Source: a bacterium
GTDB lineage: Bacteria; UBP6; JAFGXH01
Length of the DNA: 41,755 nucleotides
Assembly: GCA_027064085.1 (NCBI GenBank)
Contig: JAMOQH010000100.1
Location: 1-41,755 of the forward strand
Reading direction: 5' to 3'
In this document: positions 5,970-38,703 of the stretch, piece after piece
Layout of the letters: the number at the start of each line of letters is the position of its first letter
How positions within the stretch are numbered: position 1 is the stretch's first letter
Translations under genes and position numbers: made by a program
Notes under the pieces: model-generated
The model's database searches: none
What the model was told of the DNA's origin: nothing
The model's input: the letters and a program-made list of their open reading frames with translations, nothing else

Positions 5970-8261
5970 ATGAACCATAGAATCTTTTTAATATTATTTT
6001 TAATAAACAGCTCTTTAATGGCAAATGACTCATTTTTAAATATTTTTAATAAAGAAGAAAATGTATTTTTTAAAAAACTACAATATAAAAAGCTTTTGCT
6101 TTCTTTAAATGATAATATTAAAAACAATAATGAGCCAAGAAACTTCTTTACTGGATTTCTTTTATATAAAAGAGGCAAACATGAAGATGCGTTCTTATTT
6201 TTTAAATCACTTAAAGATAAAAACTTAAAAGCTTTTGGTGATTATTACATGGCTAGATATTACTTTAATCATAATAAAATAAAACAAGCAGAAAAACTTT
6301 TTAATAAAATAGATAAAAGGCATTATTTTGAAAATTCTATATTATTATATCAATCTAAAATATATTTTAAAAAAAACAATTTAGAAAAATTTGAAAAAAT
6401 TTATTCTGAATTGTTTAAGCTTAGTAAAAAGAAACAAAAACAAGAGATTCAAAAATTATATATTACTTTATTGTATAAAATATATATAAAAGAAAATCGA
6501 AAGTTAAAGTATAATAAAAAAGAGCAAAAGGAAGAAATAAAAAGTAATATTCAAAAATATAAAAATAAATTAAAGACCCAAATATTAATTTTTTTAAATT
6601 TAAATAGTTTAGCAAATACTCCTTGGTTAAAAACCTATGTAAAAAAAATATTTAGAACGGAAGAAGATTATTTTAATTTATTGTTAAAGAGATATTATTA
6701 TTTGATAGCTAAGTTTAGATACATAAAAGCATTAAATATTATTGATTCTGATATAAGAAGATACGAAAGATATAGAATTAGAGCAAAAAGAAAACATAGG
6801 CAAAAACTTTTAATGTATAAAAATAGATTATACTTATTAAAAATTGAAATTTTATATAAACTTAGAAGATATAAAAAAACTTTTACAATATTTGAGAAGA
6901 TATTGAAATATAAACAAGTTAAATATAGCTATTGGTTATTTAAAGTTTATGCTAAAAGAAATATGTTAAAAAAATATGAGGCATATTATAAAAAAACTTA
7001 TAGTTTAATTTCTCATTCTGAATATATTGAAGAAATAGACTATCTTAGAGCAATGTTAAATTTTAATAATCACAAGTTGGAAACAGAAAAATTATTTCAT
7101 AATTTTTTCAAAAAATATAAAATTTCTAATAAAATATTAGAAATGCAAGAAAAATTAGCTTGGTTTTATTATAGAGAAGGCCTATACTCTAAATCGATAC
7201 CATTATATGAAATAATATCTAAAAACCAAAACTATAAAAAAAGAGATTTAGCTTATTATTGGCTTGGGAAAATATATAAAAAAATAGGCTTAAATAAAAA
7301 AGGTGAAGCTTATTGGCAAAAAATATTAATAAATTCACCATTAACATATTATTCTAATCTAGTACTAAATTATTCTAATAATAGCTTTAATAAAGTTACT
7401 TTAAGTAATAGAAAACAACTTAATAAAAAATTAAATGTTAGAAATTTTCAAAAAATAATAAAAAACGATGAAATCCCTAATTATATTAGATTTTTTATCA
7501 AATATAGGTTTTATAATATTGCAAGATATGAACTCTTTTATCTATATAAAAGAAATAACAGAAAATTAAATCATAATTTAAAGCTTGCAATGGCAAAACT
7601 ATCTTACTTAAATGAAAAATCAATTAAATATGCTCATGCAATCTTTCATAGAGATATGGGAGGAGCTGATTATCCTGAAAATGATTCTTTAGAAATTTGG
7701 CAATTAGCTTTTCCAAATATGTATAAAAATGATGTTTTATTTGCTTCAAAAACTATAAAAATACCTAAAAGTCTTATTTATGCAATTATAAGAGAAGAAA
7801 GTAGTTTTAATAGATTAGCAAAATCATATTCTAACGCTTATGGTTTAATGCAACTATTATACCCAACAGCAAGAAGATTAAGGTGGAGTCTTAAAGCTTA
7901 TACTCGTTTAAACTTTAATCGTTCTTGGAAGTTATTTAACTCTAGATACAATATCTCACTTGGAACAACCTATCTAAAATTTTTAGACAAAGAGTTTAAT
8001 GGAAATAAAATATCTATGATTGCTTCTTATAATGCCGGAGAAAGAAATGTTCGTAAGTGGAGAAAAAAATATAAAAATATGAGTGAAGATGAATTTGTTG
8101 AATCTATTCCAATAAATCAAACTAAACACTATGTAAAAAAAGTCCTGAAATCTTATTATATTTATAAATATATTTATAATTTTAAAACTGAACTAAACTA
8201 TATCCCAATTAAAAAGAAACTAAAAGCAAGGCGATGTATTGTCCGAAGGAGAAAAAAATGA
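5970..8261 (+). CDS. slt: Soluble lytic murein transglycosylase (Slt70-like, GH23)
   Basis: Periplasmic enzyme that cleaves the MurNAc-GlcNAc bond of peptidoglycan to give anhydro-muropeptides. A signal peptide (MNHRIFLILFLINSSLMA) precedes about 560 residues of helical, Lys/Tyr-rich repeats like the Slt70 superhelical ring. The C-terminal SLT domain has REESSF (catalytic Glu about 610), SNAYGLMQLLYPTA and SYNAGERNV, all in the right order, followed by the KHYVKKVL helix. Length (763) is near other deltaproteobacterial Slt proteins and longer than E. coli Slt70. A strong AGGGGG site precedes the ATG. The gene ends in an ATGA overlap with thiE. It shares its design with the transglycosylase at 26916-29240, but the two are clearly diverged. 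Confidence 0.88.
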   Translation: MNHRIFLILFLINSSLMANDSFLNIFNKEENVFFKKLQYKKLLLSLNDNIKNNNEPRNFFTGFLLYKRGKHEDAFLFFKSLKDKNLKAFGDYYMARYYFNHNKIKQAEKLFNKIDKRHYFENSILLYQSKIYFKKNNLEKFEKIYSELFKLSKKKQKQEIQKLYITLLYKIYIKENRKLKYNKKEQKEEIKSNIQKYKNKLKTQILIFLNLNSLANTPWLKTYVKKIFRTEEDYFNLLLKRYYYLIAKFRYIKALNIIDSDIRRYERYRIRAKRKHRQKLLMYKNRLYLLKIEILYKLRRYKKTFTIFEKILKYKQVKYSYWLFKVYAKRNMLKKYEAYYKKTYSLISHSEYIEEIDYLRAMLNFNNHKLETEKLFHNFFKKYKISNKILEMQEKLAWFYYREGLYSKSIPLYEIISKNQNYKKRDLAYYWLGKIYKKIGLNKKGEAYWQKILINSPLTYYSNLVLNYSNNSFNKVTLSNRKQLNKKLNVRNFQKIIKNDEIPNYIRFFIKYRFYNIARYELFYLYKRNNRKLNHNLKLAMAKLSYLNEKSIKYAHAIFHRDMGGADYPENDSLEIWQLAFPNMYKNDVLFASKTIKIPKSLIYAIIREESSFNRLAKSYSNAYGLMQLLYPTARRLRWSLKAYTRLNFNRSWKLFNSRYNISLGTTYLKFLDKEFNGNKISMIASYNAGERNVRKWRKKYKNMSEDEFVESIPINQTKHYVKKVLKSYYIYKYIYNFKTELNYIPIKKKLKARRCIVRRRKK

Positions 8262-24774: not shown

Positions 24775-26916
24775 ATGAAATATTTTTTTTTATTATTTAT
24801 ATCAATAATAGTGTTCTTAGCTTGTAACACTCCAACTTATAAATTAACTTGTAAAATTGATAGAGATTGTGATTTAGGACAAACATGTAATGTCGTTACA
24901 AATACTTGTATTCAAAACAGAATAGAATGTAAAGGAAATGAAGATTGCCCTGTTGGTAAATCGTGTGATTTAGATAAAAATAAATGTGTTGTTCCTACGA
25001 GTTGTACAACAGATGAATCATGTTATAATTTGTTTCCAGATGAATGGAATAAAGATACTAAACCTGCAAAATGTAATAGTGCAAAAGCATGTGTTCTTGA
25101 TGCATGTGTAAATAATGTTGATTGTATTGCAGGTAAGGTTTGTCAAGGAGGCGCTTGTGTTACTCCTATTTCGTGTGATTTAGTTGGAGCTATAAAAATA
25201 ATAACTCCAGCTATTGTTTTAAAAGAGGGAAAAGAAGATTTTTTAAAAGCTCAAGTTTTTAATAAAAATGGTTTAGCCGTTGTAGTTGAAGATGGAAAAA
25301 TCACTTGGGAAAGTAGTGATACCGAAATCGTTTCAGTTGATGCTAGTGGTAAAATTAAAGGTGGAACAAAATCAGGAATAGCTCAAATTACTGCTCATCA
25401 TAACGATTGTAGTCAGGTATCAGCACCTTTGGAAATAGAAAATTTTGCCAATCTAGAAGATGGTAAACTTAGAGTAATTTTAAGAGATTTATATACGGGT
25501 AAACCTGTAAATAATGGACAAGTTATTATAAATAAACAAGCTCCTATAATAACTGACTCTAAAGGTTGGATAGAAACGGATAACACTGAAACTAAAAATA
25601 ATATACTAGTAAAATCAGATGCTTATCAATATTTATCTATTTTGGATACATCTTCAAAAGATATAATTTTATATTTAACTCCTTTTGTACCTCAAGATAA
25701 AGCTGGTGGATATCAGGGTAAATTTAATTTTGATAATGTTAAAAATTTAGGAGACTTAAAAATTGGTATTGCTGGAGCATCTTTACCATCAAGTTTATTA
25801 GATATCTCATTTGATTTCTTATTAAGTGAATCCTACATGAAAGACATAGATGCAGGAGGTATTTCTGGTACTTATGCTGTTCCTTCTAATATTGTAATGA
25901 TATTGGGTGATGATATTGTTCAAGAAAACTATAGAGTTACTACTCCTAAGGGTAATATCGCTTTTTGGGGATTAGGAAGTAAAATGAGTATGAGTGATTT
26001 TTTAGTAATAATTCAATCTGTTATGGGTAGTGAGGGATTAAATATGGGAGATTTAATAAGAGAATTAGCTCCATATTTTAAAACATTTTATCATGCTCTT
26101 AAAACAGAAAATCAAACAAGTTTATGTAGTAAAATAATTGATACAACCGATAGTAATGGAAATGGTCTTACTGATGATTTAATTCCTGCTTATAATAACT
26201 CGTCATGTTTTCCGGAATTTAACTTAAAGCTAGAAAAGAAACTTTCTCTTGCGTCAACTATTAAAACCCCTAAACTGATAAAATTGGATAATGAATTTAC
26301 TGATACAGCAATTGCAATACTTGGATATAATGTAGATGGAAATGGTTTTATTCCCGCAGGGCTTACTATTGGAGCTGACAAAAAAGATAAAAATGATACT
26401 CCAGATCAAGTTGTTAATGATACAATATTAAATTATTCTCCTCAATATAATGGAATGGAAGGCTCCACGACATCTCTTGTTCTTTTAGCAATGAAGCTTG
26501 AAAGTGATAAAGAAGAAACAAAAGCAGATGAAGAAGCTCCTAAAAAGATAAGGTTATCAGGTTTACTCAGAAATTATGAGAATGGTGTTCCTTCTGTAAT
26601 GGATCTTAGCCAAGTAAATTTTTTAAAAACAACAGATGATGCAATTTTTAATAGTCCAAATATAAATTTTACAGCGATTAGTGATGCAAATATTTATAGG
26701 TTAAAAATTAAGTCTGTAACGGGGAAAATATTAATTCTTTATAGTTCTAAAACAAATTTTAATGTTCCTATAATTCCTGATTTCGGAGAAATTGAGTTTA
26801 TATTGATTCAAGCTGTTAAAGCCTCTAAATCTATTAATGAAATTGTTTTATTTAATGATGCAAATTTAAATAAGTTTACTGATTTTGTAACAGCATTTTC
26901 TGTGTTTGAGTTATAA
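24775..26916 (+). CDS. Cys-rich, Ig-like surface lipoprotein
   Basis: A 713-residue predicted lipoprotein: lipobox FLAC, lipidated Cys17. Residues about 26-135 are four Cys-rich repeats of the type CxxDxDCxxGxxCxxxxxxC, a pattern frequent in myxobacterial surface lipoproteins. Next is a BIG2/Ig-like domain (about 150-225: ITWESSDTEIVSVDASGKI). A carboxypeptidase-regulatory-like beta-sandwich follows (about 230-310: LRVILRDLYTGKPVNNGQV). A further unrecognised region of about 400 residues contains a Ca-loop-like DSNGNGLTDD near residue 457. No enzyme motif is seen; it probably faces the cell surface and binds a polymer or partner. The stop joins the next gene as TAATG. Confidence 0.82.
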   Translation: MKYFFLLFISIIVFLACNTPTYKLTCKIDRDCDLGQTCNVVTNTCIQNRIECKGNEDCPVGKSCDLDKNKCVVPTSCTTDESCYNLFPDEWNKDTKPAKCNSAKACVLDACVNNVDCIAGKVCQGGACVTPISCDLVGAIKIITPAIVLKEGKEDFLKAQVFNKNGLAVVVEDGKITWESSDTEIVSVDASGKIKGGTKSGIAQITAHHNDCSQVSAPLEIENFANLEDGKLRVILRDLYTGKPVNNGQVIINKQAPIITDSKGWIETDNTETKNNILVKSDAYQYLSILDTSSKDIILYLTPFVPQDKAGGYQGKFNFDNVKNLGDLKIGIAGASLPSSLLDISFDFLLSESYMKDIDAGGISGTYAVPSNIVMILGDDIVQENYRVTTPKGNIAFWGLGSKMSMSDFLVIIQSVMGSEGLNMGDLIRELAPYFKTFYHALKTENQTSLCSKIIDTTDSNGNGLTDDLIPAYNNSSCFPEFNLKLEKKLSLASTIKTPKLIKLDNEFTDTAIAILGYNVDGNGFIPAGLTIGADKKDKNDTPDQVVNDTILNYSPQYNGMEGSTTSLVLLAMKLESDKEETKADEEAPKKIRLSGLLRNYENGVPSVMDLSQVNFLKTTDDAIFNSPNINFTAISDANIYRLKIKSVTGKILILYSSKTNFNVPIIPDFGEIEFILIQAVKASKSINEIVLFNDANLNKFTDFVTAFSVFEL

Positions 26917-29240
26917 TGATACTAATATATTTAATAATTTCTTTATTATCTCCTATTGATAATAACCAAGTGGAGTTAAATAAAGTTAAATTACTAGAAG
27001 ATAATTTTTTTCAGAATGAAAAAAACACTAAAAACAAAAAAAATAACAAAAAACTAGGCTGTAAACTAGCAATAGAATATCAAAATATTAATGAATTTAA
27101 AAAATCTAGCAAGTATTTAAAGTATTGTAAAAAATTAGGTTATAAATACAAAGAATTATATACTTTTTTAGATGTTAGGAAAAGGTTTTATCTAAATGAA
27201 AAGGGAGTAGTATATAAAATAAATTATTTTTTAAAAAAATATGAAAATTCTAGTTTTACAGATGAAATTAGAAAACTTAAATTAAGATATTATTTTAAAA
27301 ATGAAAGATATAAGGCATCATACTATGGTTATTTGAAATATAAAAAAGAAAATCCTCCGTCACATGAAGAATCAATATTTATTAATTATATTATTAGGTA
27401 TTCATATTTAAAAATTGCTAAAAAAAATGATAAATTTATTGCACTTCTAGATGTATTACAAGACAAACAGTTTTATTTAAAAGAAGATATTGAGAAGATA
27501 AAAAAACAAATAAATGGATTTTCTTTAGACGCCATAAAAAAGTTAATAACTACATATAAAAAAGAAAAAAAATATTATAAAATATCAAAATTACTATATT
27601 TAACAAGAATTTATGCTCCTAACTTATTTGATTATATTGCTAATGATAAAAACATAAAAAATCTTTTAAATACAAAACAAACAAATTTAAATTATCAAAT
27701 AAATATTTACCATTTTAATAAAAAAAATTGGGATTTTAATAAAAGAGAGAAATTTTTGGATAATTTGTTAAAACAGGCGGTAAAAGAACAGGAAAAAAAG
27801 GACATTTTATATCAAAAATTACTTTTATACAAAAAATATAAAAAAATAAAAAAAAGAATAGAAACTTATAAAAAAATGTTAGAATTAAAGCAAACGAGAC
27901 GAAAACAATCATATTATTATCTTAAAATAGGTGTTTATTCTCTTGAATTAGGGAATGAAAAAGAAGGAATAAAATATCTAAATTTATTAATAAATAAGTT
28001 TAATAGATGGTACAAGGAATACCCCTCTGCATTGTTTGTTTTGTTTAATTTGTATAGGGAAAAATACCTTTATAGTGTTAAAAGTAAAAAAGGAAAATCG
28101 TCAATATTGGTTATATTGCAAAACATTGAAAAAAAGATGGAAAAAACATATTTAAAACAAATTTTATATTATTATAAAATAAAGGATAACAGAGCAACAA
28201 AGAAAGAAAGAGAAAAAATTAAAAAGTTTTTTAAGTTAAGACCATATAATTTTTATTCAATAATGCTAGATAAAAGAATTGTTAATAAAAAAGACAGTTG
28301 GAAAAAATGGGAAGACTTAGTGAAATATCAAAAAATACCTGATTTTTCTAAAAAAATAGAAAAAAAATCTTCTAAAAAGTATTCAATTTATAAAATAAAA
28401 AAGATATTTAAAAAATATGATAAATTATTTACAGAAATAAATTTAATAAGGAATTTACAATATATTGAAGAAGAGAATCTTCAAGAAAAATTAATGATAA
28501 AATTTTATAATAAACTATATAAATTAAACAAAATAAAAAACAAAAAAAACATAGATAAAGATAAAAAACCTTTAGTAGAGGCTTTAAAAGAGATAAAAAA
28601 GAATTACTATTACCACTTTTTAAATTATTTTATAGCTATTAATAATATTCAATATGCTTATTTACTAATGCATAGGCATTTTGGGTATTTAAAAAACGAT
28701 GATTTTTATAAATTTTATTATTCTCCTATTCCATACCCAAAAATTATTGATGAAGAAGCTAAATTTTTTAATATTAACCCGTTAATTATAATATCAATAA
28801 TGGAAACGGAATCAATCTTTAATTCAAATGCTTATTCTTCTGCTGGGGCAATAGGTTTAATGCAAATTATGCCTGCAACAGGAAGAGCAATCGCTAAAAA
28901 ATTAAAAATTAAGAATTATGATTTATATTTACCTCAATTTAATATAAAATTTGGAGCTTATTATTTATCGGAACTGTTAAAAAGATTTCATTATCAGTTA
29001 CCATTTGCTGCTGCATCTTATAATGGTGGTCCTCATAACATGAAAAGGTGGTTACAAAGTAATAAAAATAAAAAATTAAAACTTGATGAAATGATAGAAA
29101 AAATAGGCTTTAGGGAAAGCCGAAATTATGCTAAAAAAATAATAAGATTATTTTCAAGTTATAGAAAATTATATTTTAATCAAGAAACAATTATTCCAAT
29201 TAATGTTAATTTTGACGATGAAAAGAAAATCAATTTTTAA
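26916..29240 (+). CDS. slt: Second lytic murein transglycosylase, large
   Basis: A 774-residue predicted periplasmic enzyme cleaving peptidoglycan glycan strands. The first 15 residues are hydrophobic but short and lack a clear cleavage site. About 610 residues of Lys-rich helical repeats follow. The C-terminal SLT domain has METESIF (catalytic Glu about 632), SSAGAIGLMQIMPATGRAIA, NIKFGAYYLSELL, ASYNGGP and FRESRNYAKKI, a complete set. The N-terminal superhelix shares composition, not obvious sequence, with the transglycosylase at 5970. The ATG overlaps the lipoprotein stop (TAATG), implying translational coupling and perhaps a physical partnership at the envelope. Confidence 0.87.
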   Translation: MILIYLIISLLSPIDNNQVELNKVKLLEDNFFQNEKNTKNKKNNKKLGCKLAIEYQNINEFKKSSKYLKYCKKLGYKYKELYTFLDVRKRFYLNEKGVVYKINYFLKKYENSSFTDEIRKLKLRYYFKNERYKASYYGYLKYKKENPPSHEESIFINYIIRYSYLKIAKKNDKFIALLDVLQDKQFYLKEDIEKIKKQINGFSLDAIKKLITTYKKEKKYYKISKLLYLTRIYAPNLFDYIANDKNIKNLLNTKQTNLNYQINIYHFNKKNWDFNKREKFLDNLLKQAVKEQEKKDILYQKLLLYKKYKKIKKRIETYKKMLELKQTRRKQSYYYLKIGVYSLELGNEKEGIKYLNLLINKFNRWYKEYPSALFVLFNLYREKYLYSVKSKKGKSSILVILQNIEKKMEKTYLKQILYYYKIKDNRATKKEREKIKKFFKLRPYNFYSIMLDKRIVNKKDSWKKWEDLVKYQKIPDFSKKIEKKSSKKYSIYKIKKIFKKYDKLFTEINLIRNLQYIEEENLQEKLMIKFYNKLYKLNKIKNKKNIDKDKKPLVEALKEIKKNYYYHFLNYFIAINNIQYAYLLMHRHFGYLKNDDFYKFYYSPIPYPKIIDEEAKFFNINPLIIISIMETESIFNSNAYSSAGAIGLMQIMPATGRAIAKKLKIKNYDLYLPQFNIKFGAYYLSELLKRFHYQLPFAAASYNGGPHNMKRWLQSNKNKKLKLDEMIEKIGFRESRNYAKKIIRLFSSYRKLYFNQETIIPINVNFDDEKKINF

Positions 29241-29391: not shown

Positions 29392-29412
29392 AATTGTTTA
29401 TTAGAGGTTGTG

Positions 29413-29997
29413 ATGTCTGAAAATAATAAGACTACTGAAAATGATGGAAATATTAAAAGCTCAAAATTTAGAAAAATTTTAAAATTAGCTCTTATTGTTT
29501 CTATCGGTATTTTAATAGGAATGTTATTATCTCTTTTTACTGCTCATATGGCTGAAGAAACCTCTGATGAAAAATTTTGTGGGAGTTGTCACTCTATGGA
29601 GCCTATGGTTAAGGCATTTAGAGATGATATACATGGTGGCAATAACAGAGTAGGATTTAGAGCAACTTGTACAGATTGTCACTTACCTCATGATGGCATT
29701 ACAAACTATATGTTTCAAAAATCTTTAACTGGAATGCATGATATTTGGGTTGAGACATTTGGAGATACTAAAAATATAGATTGGGAAGCTAAAAGAAATC
29801 ATAGAAAGCATTTTGTATATGATTCAGGATGTTTAAAATGTCATAAAAACTTAAAAGATGCTACTGCAAGTAATCAAAAGGCATTTATTGCGCATAAAGC
29901 ATATTTTATGAAGAAAACCGAATTAGATTTAAATTGTGTTTCATGCCATGAAAATGTTGGACATAAAAATCTTAGCAAATATTTAAAAAGAAAATAA
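29413..29997 (+). CDS. Tetraheme NapC/NirT/NrfH-type cytochrome c
   Basis: Membrane-anchored quinol dehydrogenase that passes electrons from menaquinol to a periplasmic partner. One N-terminal helix (about residues 18-42) precedes four CxxCH heme sites: CGSCH (Cys56), CTDCH, CLKCH and CVSCH. Length 194 and four hemes match NrfH and short NapC proteins. The start is the ATG at 29413, 5 bases after AGAGG; the GTG before it is too close to the site. The gene is 24 bases upstream of an octaheme HAO-like gene, the arrangement of the Campylobacterota haoC/haoA pair, so it most likely supplies that enzyme. No nrfA or nap gene is visible here. Confidence 0.9.
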   Translation: MSENNKTTENDGNIKSSKFRKILKLALIVSIGILIGMLLSLFTAHMAEETSDEKFCGSCHSMEPMVKAFRDDIHGGNNRVGFRATCTDCHLPHDGITNYMFQKSLTGMHDIWVETFGDTKNIDWEAKRNHRKHFVYDSGCLKCHKNLKDATASNQKAFIAHKAYFMKKTELDLNCVSCHENVGHKNLSKYLKRK

Positions 29998-30021
29998 TTA
30001 CACATACTTTAAGGAGGGTTT

Positions 30022-31404
30022 ATGCGTGTTTTTAAGATGGTATCAGTGCTTTTAGTACTGACTTTAGCTATTGCATGGATGGTTAGTAATTCATCACCTG
30101 TATCAGTAGCTCAAGACAAAAAAGATGTTAAAACAACTAGTGATAGTAATATTACTAATTTGAAAGTTAGTCATGGATTAACAAAAACAGCTAAAAATTG
30201 TGTGGAATGCCATGCAAAAATTCAACCAGGTATAGTTAATGATTGGAAAAATAGTCGTCATGCTCATTCTGGTGTTTCTTGTATAGATTGCCATCAACAA
30301 CCAAAAGATTCTCCTATGGCAGCCCAAAACTGTGAAGGTGTCAAAGGTACTGATATTTATGTGAGTATTATGGTTACTCCTAAAACATGTGCAAAATGTC
30401 ATCCAGGTGAAGTAAAAGAATTTAATGAAAGTGGTCATTATAGAGCAAGAATTCAATATGATTTAGCAACAAGTAAACATGCTAAAGGTAAAACTGAGGG
30501 ATTAAATAAATTATATAATTATCATGAAACTCAAGGCAATGAAGCTCTTAAAAGAGCAAGTTTAAATGTTGGTTGTATGCAATGCCATGGTTCTATTATC
30601 AAACTTGATGCAAATAAAAGACCTACTTCTGACACATGGCCTAATGCTGGAATAGGAACTGTTTGGCCTGACGGTTCTGTTGGTAATTGTGTAACTTGTC
30701 ATACTCGTCATAAATTTGATATTGCAGAAGCAAGAAAACCAGAAGCATGTGCATCATGTCACTTAGGTCCTGATCATCCAGATATTGAAATTTATGAAAG
30801 CAGTAAACATGGTCAAATTTATAAAGCAGAACATGATACATGGAAATTTGATGATGCTCCTGGAGCATGGGAACCTGGTTCATATAGAGCTCCTACTTGT
30901 GCAACTTGCCACATGTCTGGAATTGGTGACTTGCAACCTACTCATAATGTTTCAAGAAGATTACACTGGAATTTATGGGCAAAAGTATCTAAAGTTAGAA
31001 ATAGTCCAGATCCGCTAAGTATGTGGACAGGAGAAGGTAATCAAGGCCGTAAAGAAATGAAAAAAGTGTGTTCTAATTGTCATTCAAGCCTTCATACTAA
31101 TAGTTTCTTTAAAAATGGTGATGATGCTGTAAAACTTTATAATGATTCGTATTTTGCTCCAGCTGAAAAGATGAGAAAAGAATTAAAAGCAAAAGGTTTA
31201 TTAAAAGCAAATCCTTGGGCTGATGAATTCCAAAAAGTATATTATCACTTATGGCATCATGAAGGAAGAAGAGCAAGACAAGGTTCTTTAATGGGTGGAC
31301 CTGATTATGCTCACTGGCATGGTTTCTTTGAATTAATGCAAGATATGTATAAATTAAAAGATATTTATAAAGCTCGTATGAAAAATGGTAAAATAGAAGA
31401 ATAA
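30022..31404 (+). CDS. haoA: Octaheme hydroxylamine oxidoreductase-like cytochrome c
   Basis: Secreted (signal peptide MRVFKMVSVLLVLTLAIAWMV) multiheme enzyme of 460 residues. Eight CxxCH sites were counted: CVECH (Cys60), CIDCH, CAKCH, CMQCH, CVTCH, CASCH, CATCH and CSNCH (Cys350). The block WHHEGRRARQGSLMGGPDYAHWHGF after the last heme is characteristic of the HAO family and separates it from other octaheme reductases. Classical HAO oxidises hydroxylamine and needs a heme-linked Tyr. Forms paired with a NapC-type protein are thought to work reductively on nitrite or hydroxylamine. Tyr429 in PDYAHWHG is the residue to align to decide this. A very strong AAGGAGGG site precedes the ATG. A strong terminator follows, so the operon is two genes. 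Confidence 0.87.
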   Translation: MRVFKMVSVLLVLTLAIAWMVSNSSPVSVAQDKKDVKTTSDSNITNLKVSHGLTKTAKNCVECHAKIQPGIVNDWKNSRHAHSGVSCIDCHQQPKDSPMAAQNCEGVKGTDIYVSIMVTPKTCAKCHPGEVKEFNESGHYRARIQYDLATSKHAKGKTEGLNKLYNYHETQGNEALKRASLNVGCMQCHGSIIKLDANKRPTSDTWPNAGIGTVWPDGSVGNCVTCHTRHKFDIAEARKPEACASCHLGPDHPDIEIYESSKHGQIYKAEHDTWKFDDAPGAWEPGSYRAPTCATCHMSGIGDLQPTHNVSRRLHWNLWAKVSKVRNSPDPLSMWTGEGNQGRKEMKKVCSNCHSSLHTNSFFKNGDDAVKLYNDSYFAPAEKMRKELKAKGLLKANPWADEFQKVYYHLWHHEGRRARQGSLMGGPDYAHWHGFFELMQDMYKLKDIYKARMKNGKIEE

Positions 31405-31612: not shown

Positions 31613-34600
31613 GTGAAAATAGTAATTGTTAGTTTGCTTTTATTTTTTACAGGTAGTTTGTTTAGCTATAATAATTATCTGGAATTTCAGAAAAATAATT
31701 ATATTAAAAATATTAAGAATGCTCCAAATGATATTACAATTCTTTATGATATTATGGAATTATGGGATATTAATGATTATTTTGATGATAATCCTTTCAA
31801 AAAAACAATAAAAAATATAAAAACTAAAAATAGGATACTTGATGCATATCTTGATATTTACAGAAACAGAGTTAATAATAAAGAAATTGGTTATATAAAT
31901 AATTATTATATTATTGGGCCATTTGATAATCAAGGTGAGTCAGGTTTTACTAAAAGTTATTTACCTGAAACTGAGTTTTCTAAAAAGAAGGTGTATAAAG
32001 GTAAAAATCAAGAAGTGAAATGGAAAACTGTTAAAAATTATGAAAAATCTTTTATTAGTTTTAAAAACTTTCTAAATCCTAAAGTTGATTCTCTTGGATA
32101 TGCATTATTTTTTGTAAAAATTAATAAATCAGGAAGGTATCAAATAAGATTTTCAACAAATAATCAGTATGAGTTATTTTTAGATAAAAAATCCATATTA
32201 AAATCTGAAAATAATGATTATTTATATTATGATAAAAATATTCTTGATGTATTTCTAAAAAGAGGTATTCATACTATTTTAGTTAAATTAGATAATAGAT
32301 ATGGTAGCTGGGGTATTTATTTAAGGGTATTGGATAAATTTGGAAAATTTAATAAAAAAAATATAGAGTTTATTTTGGCAAATAAATACCCTAAAAAGTA
32401 TCCTAAAAGCAAAATATTATCAAAAAACAGTAATTTAATTAAACAATTGGAGAAAATAAAAAATAAAAATTATAAATACTACATAAAAAGAGCAATTATA
32501 GAAAAGAATTTTACTCCTTATGATAAAAAATCCAAACCATATCCTTACGAGAAATATTTAAAAAAAGCTATTGAATTAGCAAAAAATGATGCAGAAAAAG
32601 GAGAAGCCTATTATTATGCCTATTATTATAACTCAAGTAAAATAGATGTTATTGATTATTTAAATAAAGCTGTTGAATATAATTATTTTCCTGCAATTTT
32701 AAATAAAATAAAAAGAGATATTACGATTAATAGGCTATATGAAGTAAAAAGCTTAATAAAAAAAGCCGAAAAAATTGATAAATATAATTATGAATTATTA
32801 TTTTTAATCAATAGCTATTATCAAGTTTTAGGGGTGAATTACTTAAATAGAATTATTAAAAAATATCAAAAAAGTAAAAGAATATCTAAGTATTTTGAGT
32901 TTAAAATAGATAAATTAAAATTTTCATCAATAAAAACACTGATAAATATATACAAAAATAATCAAAAAAGTCATTTTTTTAGTATTCAAGATACAAAAGA
33001 CTTGCTTTCTTATTATTTAGAAAGTTTAAATTTAAAAAAATATGAAGAATTATTAAATAAAAAATTAAAAAAAGATTACCTTAGTTTTGATTATAATTCA
33101 TTAAAGATAACATATTTATTCTCAAAACAAGAATATAATGAATTACTTGATTTGTTTAATAAAAGAAAAGAATTACTTGATGATAGCCCTAAGTTAGTTA
33201 AAATAATTGCAAAAACTTATCAATTGCTAGGTGATAGTAAAAATAGTATTAAATATTATAATAAATATTTAATGTTAACTCCTAGTGATACTAAAATTAA
33301 AGAATATTTAGCATTTATAAATACTAATAAAAAGGAACTTTGGGCTAAAAAATATATTGAAAAATTAGAAAAGTTTGATGTGAAATATAGTGATTATAAA
33401 TCTAAAAATAAGCCATTAGAAAAATTATACGAGCATATAATAGTAAAAGTAAACAATGATTTTTCTTTTAATATGTATAGAAAAGCGGCTATTGCTATAA
33501 ATAATTCAGAATCAGTTAAAAGATTTAAATTTTTACCTATGTATTATTTGCCAAATAACGAAAGAGTTACTAATTCTTATGTTAGAATAATTAAAAAATC
33601 GGGTGAAATAGAAGAAATCACAGATTATAGAGATAGGTATTATCGTTCTAAATCTAATGGAGCTTTTACAAATTATTCTGTTAGGGGTTATTATTTACCA
33701 AATTTAGAAAAAGGTGATATAATAGAGTATTCTTATTATTTAAAAAATAATAATATTTATGAAGACCCTTTTTATGCTGCTGTTTATAATTTAAATTCAT
33801 TTATGCCTGTAAAAAGAGCAACATTTACTTTTTTAACAGATAATAAAAAATTAAATTTTAATTTATCTCCTAAAACAAAAACAAATAATCAGTACTTTTT
33901 TGAATTTAAAGATTTAAGAGAAGTTAAAAGAGAACCATCTTCTACAGGATATTCTTCAAACTATAATTTCTTATCAGTATCTTCATTATCTTCATGGCAA
34001 GAACTTATAAATTGGTATAAGGGTTTGTTATATAAACAAGACATCTTATCTCAAAGTGTTAAAGATGAATTACACAAAGGAGTGGATAGTCTTAAAACTT
34101 TAGAAGATAAAATTAAATGGGTACATCATTATTTGTTTGAACATACTCATTATGTTGGTATAGAACTAGGTTTAAATGCCTATAAACCTTATTCTGCAAC
34201 AGAAGTACTTGAAAGAAAATATGGAGATTGTAAAGATAAAGCAAATTTATTTAATGCTTTATTGAAAGAAGTGGGCATAAAATCTGAAATAGTTTTATTA
34301 AGAACTAACACTTTAGGGCAAATTAATACACAAATTCCTGTTAATCCTAAATACTTTAATCATGCGATTTCATATATTCCTAAATTAAATATATTTGTTG
34401 ATTTAACAGCAGAAAAAAATGGATTATTTGATTTACCTTTTACTGACCAAGAAGCAACTGGAATTATTATTAAAGATAATGAACAACTTATACAATTACC
34501 TTCTTTAGAATCAAAAGAGATTATAAATTTAACAGCTACTAAAAATAAAAATAATTTAGAGGCAAAAATTATTTTCATATTTAAAGATTCACTAGCGTCA

Positions 34601-35128
34601 ACTTTAAGATATGGCTTAGAAAATAAAGAATTAAGAAAAAACTATTTACAACGATTACTAAAGTCTATATTTAATTCTTTTAATATAAACACTTTTAAAA
34701 TTAAAGATTTTGATGATATTAACAAAGACTTAACTATTGAAATTAATTTAGTAATTAAAGATTTTTTTAATAATAAAAGATTATATAATTCTATCTTTAT
34801 TAAAAATTCTTTAGATAATCAGGGTTTATTAAATAAACGAACAGAAAGTTATAAAAAATTAAAACTATCTATAGAGGAAAATATAAATATTAAAGGACTA
34901 AACATAAAACAAGTTTATAAAAAGAAGAATTTTAACATTAAAAATAATAACTTTTCTTATAGTTCTCATCTTGAAGAGAAAAATAACAATCAAATAATTA
35001 TTAAAAATAATATTTTATGGAAAAAGTTTAGCATAGATGTTAAGAATTATGAATCTTTTAAAAATGGTATAGAAGAAATAACTAAATTTATGAAAAATAA
35101 TATAGTATATTTAAATGGAGATAAGTAA
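31613..35128 (+). CDS. Exported DUF3857/transglutaminase-like protein, catalytic triad intact
   Basis: A 1171-residue predicted periplasmic or surface protein with signal peptide MKIVIVSLLLFFTGSLFS. In order: a jelly-roll-like beta domain (about 95-235: IGPFDNQGESGF to GSWGIYLRVLD), helical TPR-like repeats (to about 600), a DUF3857-like beta domain (about 620-800), then a transglutaminase fold. The triad is Cys873 in YGDCKDKANLF, His917 in FNHAIS and Asp930 in FVDLTA, all present. The remainder is a beta-rich tail. Family members are often annotated as transglutaminases or cysteine proteases; substrate unknown. The start is GTG 31613, 5 bases after AAGAGG; the ATG two bases earlier is followed at once by TGA. 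The stop overlaps the next gene (TAATG). Confidence 0.85.
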   Translation: MKIVIVSLLLFFTGSLFSYNNYLEFQKNNYIKNIKNAPNDITILYDIMELWDINDYFDDNPFKKTIKNIKTKNRILDAYLDIYRNRVNNKEIGYINNYYIIGPFDNQGESGFTKSYLPETEFSKKKVYKGKNQEVKWKTVKNYEKSFISFKNFLNPKVDSLGYALFFVKINKSGRYQIRFSTNNQYELFLDKKSILKSENNDYLYYDKNILDVFLKRGIHTILVKLDNRYGSWGIYLRVLDKFGKFNKKNIEFILANKYPKKYPKSKILSKNSNLIKQLEKIKNKNYKYYIKRAIIEKNFTPYDKKSKPYPYEKYLKKAIELAKNDAEKGEAYYYAYYYNSSKIDVIDYLNKAVEYNYFPAILNKIKRDITINRLYEVKSLIKKAEKIDKYNYELLFLINSYYQVLGVNYLNRIIKKYQKSKRISKYFEFKIDKLKFSSIKTLINIYKNNQKSHFFSIQDTKDLLSYYLESLNLKKYEELLNKKLKKDYLSFDYNSLKITYLFSKQEYNELLDLFNKRKELLDDSPKLVKIIAKTYQLLGDSKNSIKYYNKYLMLTPSDTKIKEYLAFINTNKKELWAKKYIEKLEKFDVKYSDYKSKNKPLEKLYEHIIVKVNNDFSFNMYRKAAIAINNSESVKRFKFLPMYYLPNNERVTNSYVRIIKKSGEIEEITDYRDRYYRSKSNGAFTNYSVRGYYLPNLEKGDIIEYSYYLKNNNIYEDPFYAAVYNLNSFMPVKRATFTFLTDNKKLNFNLSPKTKTNNQYFFEFKDLREVKREPSSTGYSSNYNFLSVSSLSSWQELINWYKGLLYKQDILSQSVKDELHKGVDSLKTLEDKIKWVHHYLFEHTHYVGIELGLNAYKPYSATEVLERKYGDCKDKANLFNALLKEVGIKSEIVLLRTNTLGQINTQIPVNPKYFNHAISYIPKLNIFVDLTAEKNGLFDLPFTDQEATGIIIKDNEQLIQLPSLESKEIINLTATKNKNNLEAKIIFIFKDSLASTLRYGLENKELRKNYLQRLLKSIFNSFNINTFKIKDFDDINKDLTIEINLVIKDFFNNKRLYNSIFIKNSLDNQGLLNKRTESYKKLKLSIEENINIKGLNIKQVYKKKNFNIKNNNFSYSSHLEEKNNNQIIIKNNILWKKFSIDVKNYESFKNGIEEITKFMKNNIVYLNGDK

Positions 35129-38100
35129 TGAAAAAAATGAAAAAGAAATTTATAAATCAATATGTAATATCTTTCCTAGCTTTATTTCTAACTATCTCTT
35201 GTGGCACAAATAATAAAATTGTAAATAAAAAAACTGAATTAAATAATAAAAAAATAGAAGATATTATTTCAACACAGGAAGAAAAAGATTTTTTTAATAA
35301 AAATATTATTCCTAAAAAAAGAAGTGGATTTTATGATATATTTTTTTCATATATGGAAGGAGATTATAGTAATTTTTATAAAAAATCTAAAAACTTTCTA
35401 AAAAACAAGCAAAATCCAGAAGCTTTGAAGCTTTGGATAGAATTAAAAATGTTTACCTTATTTAAAAAAGATATCTTATCATTTGAAGAGGTTAATAATG
35501 TATACTCTGATAATATGAATTTGAAATTTACTCCATTATTAATTAAAGAAATTGAGAGTTTATATAAAGCTTTTTTTAAATTAGATAAATCTAGTATTAA
35601 AAACTTGTATTCGTTAAATAAGTGGTCTTTATCTGGCCCATATAGAAGAACTAATACTAGTAAGCTAAGTAAATTTGACTTTAAAAATAAATACGATGAA
35701 ATATTTGTAGAAAATAAATCTATATATTTTAAAGAGGGAGGAATTACTGTACCGGATTATTTAGATAAAGTTTATGGAGGCGTTTATAAGTTAGAATCTT
35801 ATATTTATGTTGATAGTAATGAATTCAACTTATATTTAAATAATTTGATTTCGGGAGCCATTATAAAAATAGATGATAAAATTATTTTAAGTAATGATAC
35901 CGTTTATGGATCTAAAAATAAAGATATTATTAATATAAAACTAAAGAAAGGGATACATAAATTTACTATAGTAGTGAGCGACTTTAATAAAGAAATGTTT
36001 ATGTATAGTGATAAAAAACCTTCTTTTAAAAAAATAAATTCTGTAATCATAAAGAGCAAAATAAAATATAGTTCATTAGTAGATAATATTGCCCAAAAGG
36101 TTTATAAATTAGATAATAAATATTCTTATAGTTTTAAAAATATTATTTTATCTGAAATAACTATTGATTTGACAAATAATGTGGATATGTTTTATAAATA
36201 TTTAATTAAAATACCAAAAGATAATTTCTATAAATATTATTTATATTATAATTTTTATAATAATGTTTGGGGAGTAGGATTAGGTGTTAAAAGTAAATAT
36301 ATGCAGAAATATTTAAAGTTATCTTTGAAAAAAAATCCTAAATTTTATAAAACTAAAATGGAATATGTTATTTTACAAAATAAGCCAAATCCATATAAAG
36401 TTTTAGATGATTTGAAAGATATGTCTAAAACACTTTGGACTTATAAGTTACTAGCCTCTTATTATAAAAAAGCAAATTTATTATCTAAATATAAAGATAC
36501 AGTAAACAAAATGTATAATATGAATAATGGAGCATTGTTTTTATATAAATATTTTTTAAATGATTTAAGGATTTACAATTATGACCTATATACAAAAATT
36601 TATCTAAAATTTAAAAAGAAATCATTATATAAAACTGATTATAATGAAGATGATATTAAGTATATTGCTAATGAAATAAAAAAAGCTCCATATTCAAAAA
36701 CTAGCTTATATTTATTAATGGTTTTAAAAGAAGTTGATAAAAAGTTATTTTCAAAATTTAGTCTTAAAAATTTTAAAATAGAATCTATTAAAGAAACGGT
36801 AAATAGATCTAGTAAAGATTTAGAAAACTTAATAAATTCTAAAAATAATAAATATTTTATAAAAGCCGATTTTTTTCTAAAAAAATGGAAAAAATATGTT
36901 AAATTTAAACCTAATAAAGATATTATCAAAGAATTTAAGGCTCATTCTGTAAAAGAAGAATTCCCTACAACTAAATTATTGGATTACGATATCGCTTTTG
37001 TAGAAAAAGGATATTGGTTTTTACTAAATAGAAGAATTATAAAGATAAATAATTCTCAAGGATTAAGAAAATATTCAAATTTAAGAAGAGATAATTATTT
37101 AAAGATAGTAACCATTTCAAATGAAGACTTAAAAGAGTATGAACCTTTATTTACACAAAATACATCTGAAATTTCATTAAAAAAATTAAAAGTAGGTGAT
37201 TATATAGAGTTAATCACTTATCAAAACTCCATAATTAACCCAGAAACATCTCTTAGTAGATTAATTGCCTTCAGATATAAAGACTTTAACCAAACTGTTA
37301 TAAATGCAAAATTAGATTTATATATTGATAACTATTTCAGTAAAGGAAATAGAATATTATACTTGAGTTCTAGAAATAATTTTGATTTATCTAAAATAAA
37401 AAGTAAAAAACTAAATAATCATACTTTATACCAATACAGAGATAATAATTTATTTGGAATCAAAACCGAGCCATTTAGCTTTAGAAATGGAGATTTATTA
37501 TTTCCTAGTTTAGACATTTCATCTAAAAAAACATGGAAAAAAGTCTATGAAAAGTTTCAATTATTCTACGATTATTTAACTTATTCAAATTATTCTAATA
37601 CTATAATTAAAGAATTTAAAGATATAAAAACTGTTGATGACTTAAAAGATTTATATTATAAAGTCAATAAAGACATGAAGCATATTAATTCTTATTATGG
37701 GCTTTTTGATTCTACTTTTTTAAGTAAGCAGGGGAATTTAGTTTATTTTATGAAAATGATTTTAGATAAAAAGAATATAGATAATTCTGTTTTGATTTTT
37801 CATAATAAATATAATTTTTTGGATAAAAAGGATATTCCAAGATTAAGTTATTATAATGTTTTTATTTTGAGAGTTAATTTTAATAAAAAAGTTTATTATT
37901 TAGATTTTTCTAATAAATGGAATGAATTTAATAAAATTTCTCCTAATTTATATGGTCAGTTTTATTTAAGAATTGATAATGACAAAAATATTTTTAAAGA
38001 GCGATTTAAAGAAGCTAATAAATTACAAACCAAAACAGCTCTTAGTATTAAAGTTAATGAAGATAATAGTGCAGAGTTTTCATTAAAAATGACTATTCCA

Positions 38101-38676
38101 AGTATTTTAAGTTCATCTTTAAAAGGTTTCTTTTCAACTCAATCAGAAGCAAGAGTTAATATGATTTTTAATGCAATATTTTCTAAAAAACTAGGAGCAA
38201 TTAAAGATTTCAAGGTAAATATTCAAAACAGTGATACTCCAAAGCTTCCATTAATTATAGTTGTTAATTTCAAAAAAGACAATTTCACAGAGAAGAAAGA
38301 TAACAAGCTAATGATAGTAAATTTTCTTGATAAAGAATTTAGCAGTCAATTATACAGTTATGCTACTTTAAAAGATTATACAATTTTAGAAAATAGAACT
38401 CTCCCTTTGTTACTATATTATTTTAATGATATTTATACACTTAATATTAGTTTTCCAAAAGGCTATAAAGTTACTAATTTAGATGAAATAAATTTAAAAA
38501 ATCAATTTGCAAGCTACAAACTAACTAAAAATATAGTTAATAATACAATAAAACTTCAAAGAGAGTATTTTATTGATAGTAATAAGGTAGAAATTACTGA
38601 TTATAAATTACTAAAAAATATGACAGAAAAAATTAAAAAAATCAAAAATCAAGATATTGTTGCTGAGAAGAAATAA
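35128..38676 (+). CDS. Lipoprotein paralogue of the transglutaminase-like protein, triad lost
   Basis: A 1182-residue predicted lipoprotein (lipobox TISC, Cys25). The layout repeats that of the upstream protein: N-terminal beta domain (LSGPYRRTN to GIHKFTIVVSD), helical repeats, DUF3857-like domain, transglutaminase-like domain, C-terminal beta tail. At the equivalent active site, Cys is replaced (LSKQGNLVYF; the position falls on Leu865), His by Val (YNVFIL, Val911), and only Asp926 (YYLDFS) is kept. So it is probably a non-enzymatic partner or scaffold. Alignment was by eye around the NL and YLD anchors. Translation is coupled to the upstream gene, GGAGAT precedes the ATG, and the operon ends in a shared terminator with rho. 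Confidence 0.78.
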   Translation: MKKMKKKFINQYVISFLALFLTISCGTNNKIVNKKTELNNKKIEDIISTQEEKDFFNKNIIPKKRSGFYDIFFSYMEGDYSNFYKKSKNFLKNKQNPEALKLWIELKMFTLFKKDILSFEEVNNVYSDNMNLKFTPLLIKEIESLYKAFFKLDKSSIKNLYSLNKWSLSGPYRRTNTSKLSKFDFKNKYDEIFVENKSIYFKEGGITVPDYLDKVYGGVYKLESYIYVDSNEFNLYLNNLISGAIIKIDDKIILSNDTVYGSKNKDIINIKLKKGIHKFTIVVSDFNKEMFMYSDKKPSFKKINSVIIKSKIKYSSLVDNIAQKVYKLDNKYSYSFKNIILSEITIDLTNNVDMFYKYLIKIPKDNFYKYYLYYNFYNNVWGVGLGVKSKYMQKYLKLSLKKNPKFYKTKMEYVILQNKPNPYKVLDDLKDMSKTLWTYKLLASYYKKANLLSKYKDTVNKMYNMNNGALFLYKYFLNDLRIYNYDLYTKIYLKFKKKSLYKTDYNEDDIKYIANEIKKAPYSKTSLYLLMVLKEVDKKLFSKFSLKNFKIESIKETVNRSSKDLENLINSKNNKYFIKADFFLKKWKKYVKFKPNKDIIKEFKAHSVKEEFPTTKLLDYDIAFVEKGYWFLLNRRIIKINNSQGLRKYSNLRRDNYLKIVTISNEDLKEYEPLFTQNTSEISLKKLKVGDYIELITYQNSIINPETSLSRLIAFRYKDFNQTVINAKLDLYIDNYFSKGNRILYLSSRNNFDLSKIKSKKLNNHTLYQYRDNNLFGIKTEPFSFRNGDLLFPSLDISSKKTWKKVYEKFQLFYDYLTYSNYSNTIIKEFKDIKTVDDLKDLYYKVNKDMKHINSYYGLFDSTFLSKQGNLVYFMKMILDKKNIDNSVLIFHNKYNFLDKKDIPRLSYYNVFILRVNFNKKVYYLDFSNKWNEFNKISPNLYGQFYLRIDNDKNIFKERFKEANKLQTKTALSIKVNEDNSAEFSLKMTIPSILSSSLKGFFSTQSEARVNMIFNAIFSKKLGAIKDFKVNIQNSDTPKLPLIIVVNFKKDNFTEKKDNKLMIVNFLDKEFSSQLYSYATLKDYTILENRTLPLLLYYFNDIYTLNISFPKGYKVTNLDEINLKNQFASYKLTKNIVNNTIKLQREYFIDSNKVEITDYKLLKNMTEKIKKIKNQDIVAEKK

Positions 38677-38683
38677 GAATAAA

Positions 38684-38703
38684 AAAGGGGCTTTCGCCCC
38701 TTT
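38684..38703. terminator. Bidirectional terminator between the lipoprotein gene and rho
   Basis: AAAGGGGC-TTTC-GCCCCTTT with an A-run before it. It serves the plus-strand operon ending at 38676 and rho ending at 38731. Confidence 0.85.

Follow-up and report, generated by a model that had tools for sequence, protein, structure and literature searches.

Why would a bacterium encode a probable envelope enzyme directly beside a protein of the same fold that has lost the catalytic Cys and His? This question is raised by two adjacent genes, A and B, found in a stretch of bacterial DNA of 41,755 nucleotides that was analysed at its full length (the window). The initial annotation read the two genes as an enzyme and a lipoprotein pseudoenzyme of shared architecture that act as one envelope complex. 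Is B a genuine member of the family of A? Is it dead as an enzyme, and do such pairs recur elsewhere? If so, what may the dead partner contribute?

Architecture of the A-B pair

Gene A has GTG as its start codon. The features of the gene and its product are as follows:

31613..35128, + strand: gene A, exported DUF3857/transglutaminase-like protein of 1171 aa, triad intact, without a lipobox (export predicted)
31868..32362, + strand: N-terminal beta domain, A residues 86-250
33458..33916, + strand: DUF3857 (PF12969), A residues 616-768; Pfam E 2.6e-13, above the curated cut-off
34088..34402, + strand: transglutaminase-like core up to Asp930, A residues 826-930
34229..34231, + strand: codon of the catalytic Cys873, motif YGDCKDKA
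34361..34363, + strand: codon of the catalytic His917, motif FNHAI
34400..34402, + strand: codon of the catalytic Asp930

The N-terminal beta domain has also been kept in full-length relatives of A from other families of the phylum. Within the core, PF01841 (Transglut_core) matches residues 826-897 with an E-value of 1e-7, again above the curated cut-off. Cys873 is the sole cysteine in A. The Cys873-His917-Asp930 triad was confirmed at the positions where it had first been read; the GDC, FNH and Asp of A align with those of all live members of the family, and the triad is also intact in the A orthologues. The BTLCP family PF06035 (LapG/HvyA) was not matched by A or B in Pfam up to E 1.

Gene B follows on the same strand. 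The coordinates initially given for the two reading frames (31613-35128 and 35128-38676) are correct, and the TAATG overlap between them is seen in the sequence:

35126..35130, + strand: TAATG, the TAA stop of A and the ATG start of B with one base in common
35128..38676, + strand: gene B, lipoprotein pseudoenzyme of 1182 aa (lipidation predicted)
35200..35202, + strand: codon of the lipobox Cys25
36940..37518, + strand: DUF3857-like domain, B residues 605-797 (from model and alignment; boundaries approximate)
37525..38007, + strand: dead transglutaminase-like core, B residues 800-960 (boundaries approximate)
37732..37740, + strand: G869-N870-L871, replacing Gly-Asp-Cys where the Cys-bearing helix of live members begins
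37855..37860, + strand: N910-V911, replacing the catalytic His
37903..37905, + strand: Asp926, the single triad residue retained, invariant in B0-B2
38386..38673, + strand: DUF3858-like C-terminal domain, B residues 1087-1182 (boundaries approximate)

The relationship between B and A is not visible in simple comparisons. BLASTP of A against B gave no match at E 0.1, and no Pfam family matches B up to E 1; PF12970 (DUF3858) was detected below threshold, at E 0.012, in one of the three B proteins. When profiles were compared with hhalign, three B proteins matched three A proteins at E 2.5e-4 (probability 43%), and the B profile matched six members of other tandem pairs at E 2.4e-9 (probability 96%, 400 columns). 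Against a profile made from nine active members only, B0, B1 and B2 scored 51.8, 32.5 and 40.8 bits, respectively. The best of 900 shuffled B sequences reached 7.5 bits, so the similarity of B to the family is not a product of chance.

An AlphaFold model of full-length B made with three sequences had a low pLDDT of 36 and was not used. The model of B residues 605-1182, made with 22 homologues, had a pLDDT of 77.5 and a pTM of 0.76. The alignment behind it held the window and genome loci, with plasmid rows left out; since it takes in active homologues, the model is not independent of the claim of homology, whereas the profile tests are. A Foldseek search with this model returned one strong solved structure, 3KD4 (E 1.7e-18, TM 0.61/0.68, 589 columns). 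The profile, model and Foldseek results together indicate that B has DUF3857-like, transglutaminase-like and DUF3858-like domains, and its predicted fold places B in the DUF3857/transglutaminase-like family.

The architecture first proposed as common to A and B thus holds for the DUF3857 domain and the transglutaminase core, which are recognised by Pfam in A and by profile and structure only in B. The N-terminal beta domains of the two proteins match weakly (E 0.0016, probability 16%), and a helical middle in both is plausible. A third common domain, DUF3858-like and at the C-terminus, had been overlooked and was brought out by the match to 3KD4.

Loss of the active site and recurrence of live/dead tandems

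In a family-wide alignment, Cys and His are lost and Asp is retained in all three known B proteins (B0, B1 and B2). The residues that take their place depend on the alignment. The Cys site is occupied by Leu or Ile after a conserved G-N, or by Gln or Arg, and never by Cys; the His site is occupied by Val, Asn, Tyr or Leu, and never by His. The absence of Cys and His and the retention of Asp, as initially annotated for B, therefore stand, and the Leu and Val named for the two sites are one fair reading. Could a Cys/His pair lie elsewhere in B? The lipobox Cys25 is the sole cysteine in the protein, which leaves no thiol nucleophile at any other position. The orthologues B1 and B2 have additional cysteines, none of them at the catalytic column.

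Active-site residues were compared across 36 aligned family proteins. Every protein in this census that bears GDC also retains the His, and the third triad residue differs from Asp in two plasmid copies. The dead tandem partners outside the family of the window also have G-N or S-N at the Cys site (GND, GND, GNS and SNE), a recurrence that may reflect common descent or common constraint. A single origin of all dead members was considered and not taken as established: the best tree needs four changes, with long branches meeting, although a single clade is not rejected (p-AU 0.23).

A and B lie side by side, with A first, in each of the three genomes analysed from the family of the window (G000, G001:C172 and G002:C230), at identities between loci of 30-37% (about 35-36% for A and about 30-31% for B); these three loci are orthologues and not independent events. 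The remaining 25 genomes surveyed from the phylum had no B at E 0.001, and a three-row B profile gave nothing there beyond matches at E 0.05 or worse. Wherever B was found among the 28 genomes of the phylum, it was accompanied by A as its neighbour, with the order kept. In the two relatives, about 40 and 36 nt lie between the genes, so that adjacency is the conserved feature and the TAATG overlap a peculiarity of this genome. The gene that converges on the pair from the 3' side in the relatives does not resemble the rho of the window; what persists is thus the pair and not a longer block.

Live/dead tandems recur well beyond the window. The survey covered 28 genomes of one phylum, a plasmid collection and a few viral contigs. 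In another family of the phylum (G003), the gene for an active lipoprotein of 697 aa comes first and overlaps in ATGA with that for an inactive lipoprotein of 674 aa, in which both Cys and His are replaced by Asp. The order is reversed in G010, where an inactive lipoprotein lies upstream of, and overlaps, an active protein without a lipobox. Two plasmids of Persicobacter (Bacteroidota) each carry an active gene and then an inactive one; the two genes either overlap by 4 nt or stand 1 nt apart. Each of the seven tandems found (the three A-B orthologues, those of G003 and G010, and the two of Persicobacter) combines a single live member with a single dead one. Among the unpaired copies, 27 are live and two dead (G003:C92 and G002:C182), and both dead ones keep His and Asp; these counts are not independent, as the A-B loci and several of the single copies are orthologues. 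Plasmid searches started from the Persicobacter and G003 proteins yielded no additional pairs, a scan of genome contigs recovered the G002 contig alone, and scans of the viral contigs for more pairs found only phage proteins and one partial single copy. The initial reading of an enzyme with a lipoprotein pseudoenzyme is supported by the triad in A and the loss of Cys and His in B, and it withstood both of the checks proposed with it, on a Cys/His pair elsewhere in B and on the adjacency of the genes.

The two unpaired dead members differ in their settings. The one in G003:C92 (L090, 5267-8350, minus strand) has GSY for GDC, with His and Asp kept, and lies inside a conserved FHA/MinD/kinase-like cluster; the family members encoded in this cluster elsewhere, in other genera, are live. 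The one in G002:C182 (L091, 1519-4656, minus strand) is a lone protein of 1045 aa without a Pfam match that has lost the Cys site and kept His and Asp. Its C-terminus resembles the B profile.

Possible roles of the inactive partner

What could a dead homologue do for a live one? The distribution of lipid anchors provides one clue. A lipobox is present in all three B proteins, and the predicted anchor is on B and not on A in all three genomes; in G010 it is on the dead member alone. Six single copies resemble A over the whole length; five of them are lipoproteins, and in the other one the start is uncertain. This pattern suggests that an anchor once provided in cis is now provided in trans. An Omp85-type barrel adjoins such single A-like copies in G005, G009, G010 and G012, and a MORN-repeat lipoprotein does so in G010, G011 and G012. 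Both kinds of neighbour point to the outer membrane.

In other families of the phylum, the genes for the single A-like lipoprotein, an Omp85-type barrel and a MORN-repeat lipoprotein make up a recurrent, probable outer-membrane neighbourhood (L041, L042, L043, L045 and L047).

With slightly more confidence than doubt, we favour the reading that A and B make up a long-standing enzyme-pseudoenzyme pair from the DUF3857/transglutaminase-like/DUF3858 family, in which B most likely binds A in the envelope and anchors it, controls it, or both. In this scheme, A would be exported across the inner membrane and would be a cysteine hydrolase or acyltransferase of the papain fold, with a protein or peptide of the envelope as its substrate. 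B would be lipidated and probably located in the outer membrane. Keeping the fold without the nucleophile, it would most likely bind A through the homologous domains, so that the two may act as one envelope complex, as the initial annotation had proposed from their coupling and layout. B would then anchor A, control access to its active site, or both. With the lipid anchor moved from cis to trans, B would hold A at the membrane by domain pairing and might also gate it. Anchoring cannot be the general or the only role of dead partners, since G003 has lipoproteins in both tandem positions and in Persicobacter the dead proteins lack a lipobox match.

The chief alternative to anchoring is inhibition or allosteric control. 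B might be an inhibitor or an immunity-like pseudoenzyme that holds A inactive until a trigger or shields the envelope of the producer from A. The live-then-dead order seen in most pairs fits such a role, but the dead member comes first in G010. A dead homologue could occupy a substrate or dimer surface, and the Persicobacter partners without a lipobox fit a role other than anchoring; an inhibitor, however, needs no lipid anchor, which B has. Sequence does not separate this reading from that of an anchor or activator, and we consider it possible but rather unlikely.

B could also work alone, as a lipoprotein scaffold, receptor or peptide-binding protein, with the adjacency due only to tandem duplication and shared regulation. 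The low similarity between A and B at the BLASTP level, the lipobox that B has of its own and the lone dead member in G002:C182 are compatible with this. Yet adjacency and order have been kept across genera in which B is only about 31% identical, B was not found without A in the 28 genomes, and live/dead tandems recur in other families and in a second phylum. We regard independence of B as improbable on these grounds.

Two further explanations carry very little weight. Unusual active sites do occur in the papain-like superfamily, such as Ser/Thr in DUF1839 (PMC10318531), and B might by analogy use a non-canonical nucleophile; the three B proteins, however, have no Ser or Thr in common at the nucleophile position, they have Leu or Ile after G-N, and the His is lost as well, which makes activity of B very improbable. 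Least credible of all is that B is a decaying, functionless copy: its catalytic residues are gone, but its frames are open at full length in three genomes with the lipobox kept in each, and dN/dS between G001 and G002 (Nei-Gojobori) is 0.225 for B overall and 0.096 for its dead core, against 0.196 for A. B, and particularly its dead domain, is under purifying selection. The G+C content of the G002 contig is 27%.

Related proteins and surroundings of the window

PDB 3KD4 (BDI_1141 of Parabacteroides distasonis) is the only solved structure of the DUF3857 family and was deposited as a 'putative protease'. Its GTPLE aligns to GDCKD with four different profiles, which indicates that it has no catalytic Cys and shares with B a dead Cys site; its His and Asp fall outside the aligned stretches. 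Judged from these alignments, 3KD4 is probably a pseudoenzyme too.

How do A and B compare with systems already described? A matches the first two families of the DUF3857/Transglut_core/DUF3858 proteins (PF12969, PF01841 and PF12970) by Pfam, and the C-terminal half of B matches the whole length of 3KD4. A and B differ from these proteins in carrying about 600 extra N-terminal residues (the beta domain and helical repeats), and B has diverged too far to be matched by any Pfam family. The BTLCP proteins LapG and HvyA (PF06035) are, like A with its predicted location, extracytoplasmic papain-fold enzymes with a Cys-His-Asp triad. The periplasmic HvyA, of the wider superfamily, restrains capsulation in Caulobacter and requires its triad to do so (PMC4241560). 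BTLCP proteins differ from A in belonging to another Pfam family and in lacking DUF3857, and no dead twin is described for them in the same paper (PMC4241560).

Dead folds and pseudoprotease partners are already known elsewhere. What is new here is that live/dead tandems are also found in G003, in G010 and on two Persicobacter plasmids. CspA and CspC of Clostridioides difficile are bacterial pseudoprotease partners. EPB42 and FBXO21 are dead transglutaminase folds (PMC10318531). B would resemble all four in that a dead fold is kept as a structural or regulatory partner; they differ from A-B in being eukaryotic or from unrelated protease families, and they are not tandem pairs of the DUF3857 family. 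A search of open-licence papers on DUF3857, bacterial dead transglutaminases and 3KD4 found no description of live/dead DUF3857 pairs, and the DUF3857 domain has one passing mention in the open literature searched.

DUF3857 proteins are present in several bacterial phyla, and the repeated live/dead pairing provides a first concrete handle on the function of the family. It also alters the reading of the family's only crystal structure. A broader proposal, which we put forward tentatively and at somewhat less than even confidence, is that the live/dead tandem constitutes a working unit of the DUF3857/transglutaminase-like family that is widespread in Gram-negative phyla and has gone undescribed. 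The secreted thiol enzyme would then depend for its activity on a complex with the dead homologue, by which it would be docked or gated at the envelope, and 3KD4 would be the dead half of such a unit, mislabelled as a protease. A-B offers a directly testable two-protein envelope system.

Several other genes of the window were noted. Directly upstream of A, at 29410-31404, an NrfH/NapC-like cytochrome gene is followed by a multihaem cytochrome gene similar to hydrazine dehydrogenase/HAO-type proteins. Two Slt-type lytic transglycosylase paralogues are encoded at 5970-8261 and 26916-29240; both have an SLT domain, and their catalytic parts are 31% identical. The latter gene shares a single base with the end of a gene for a Cys-rich predicted lipoprotein (24775-26916). 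These two coupled upstream genes were considered as a second live/dead pair and rejected, as there is no similarity between them. Between the convergent ends of B and rho, at 38684-38703, lies a terminator-like stem-loop, AAAGGGGCGAAAGCCCCTTT, followed by a T-rich sequence.
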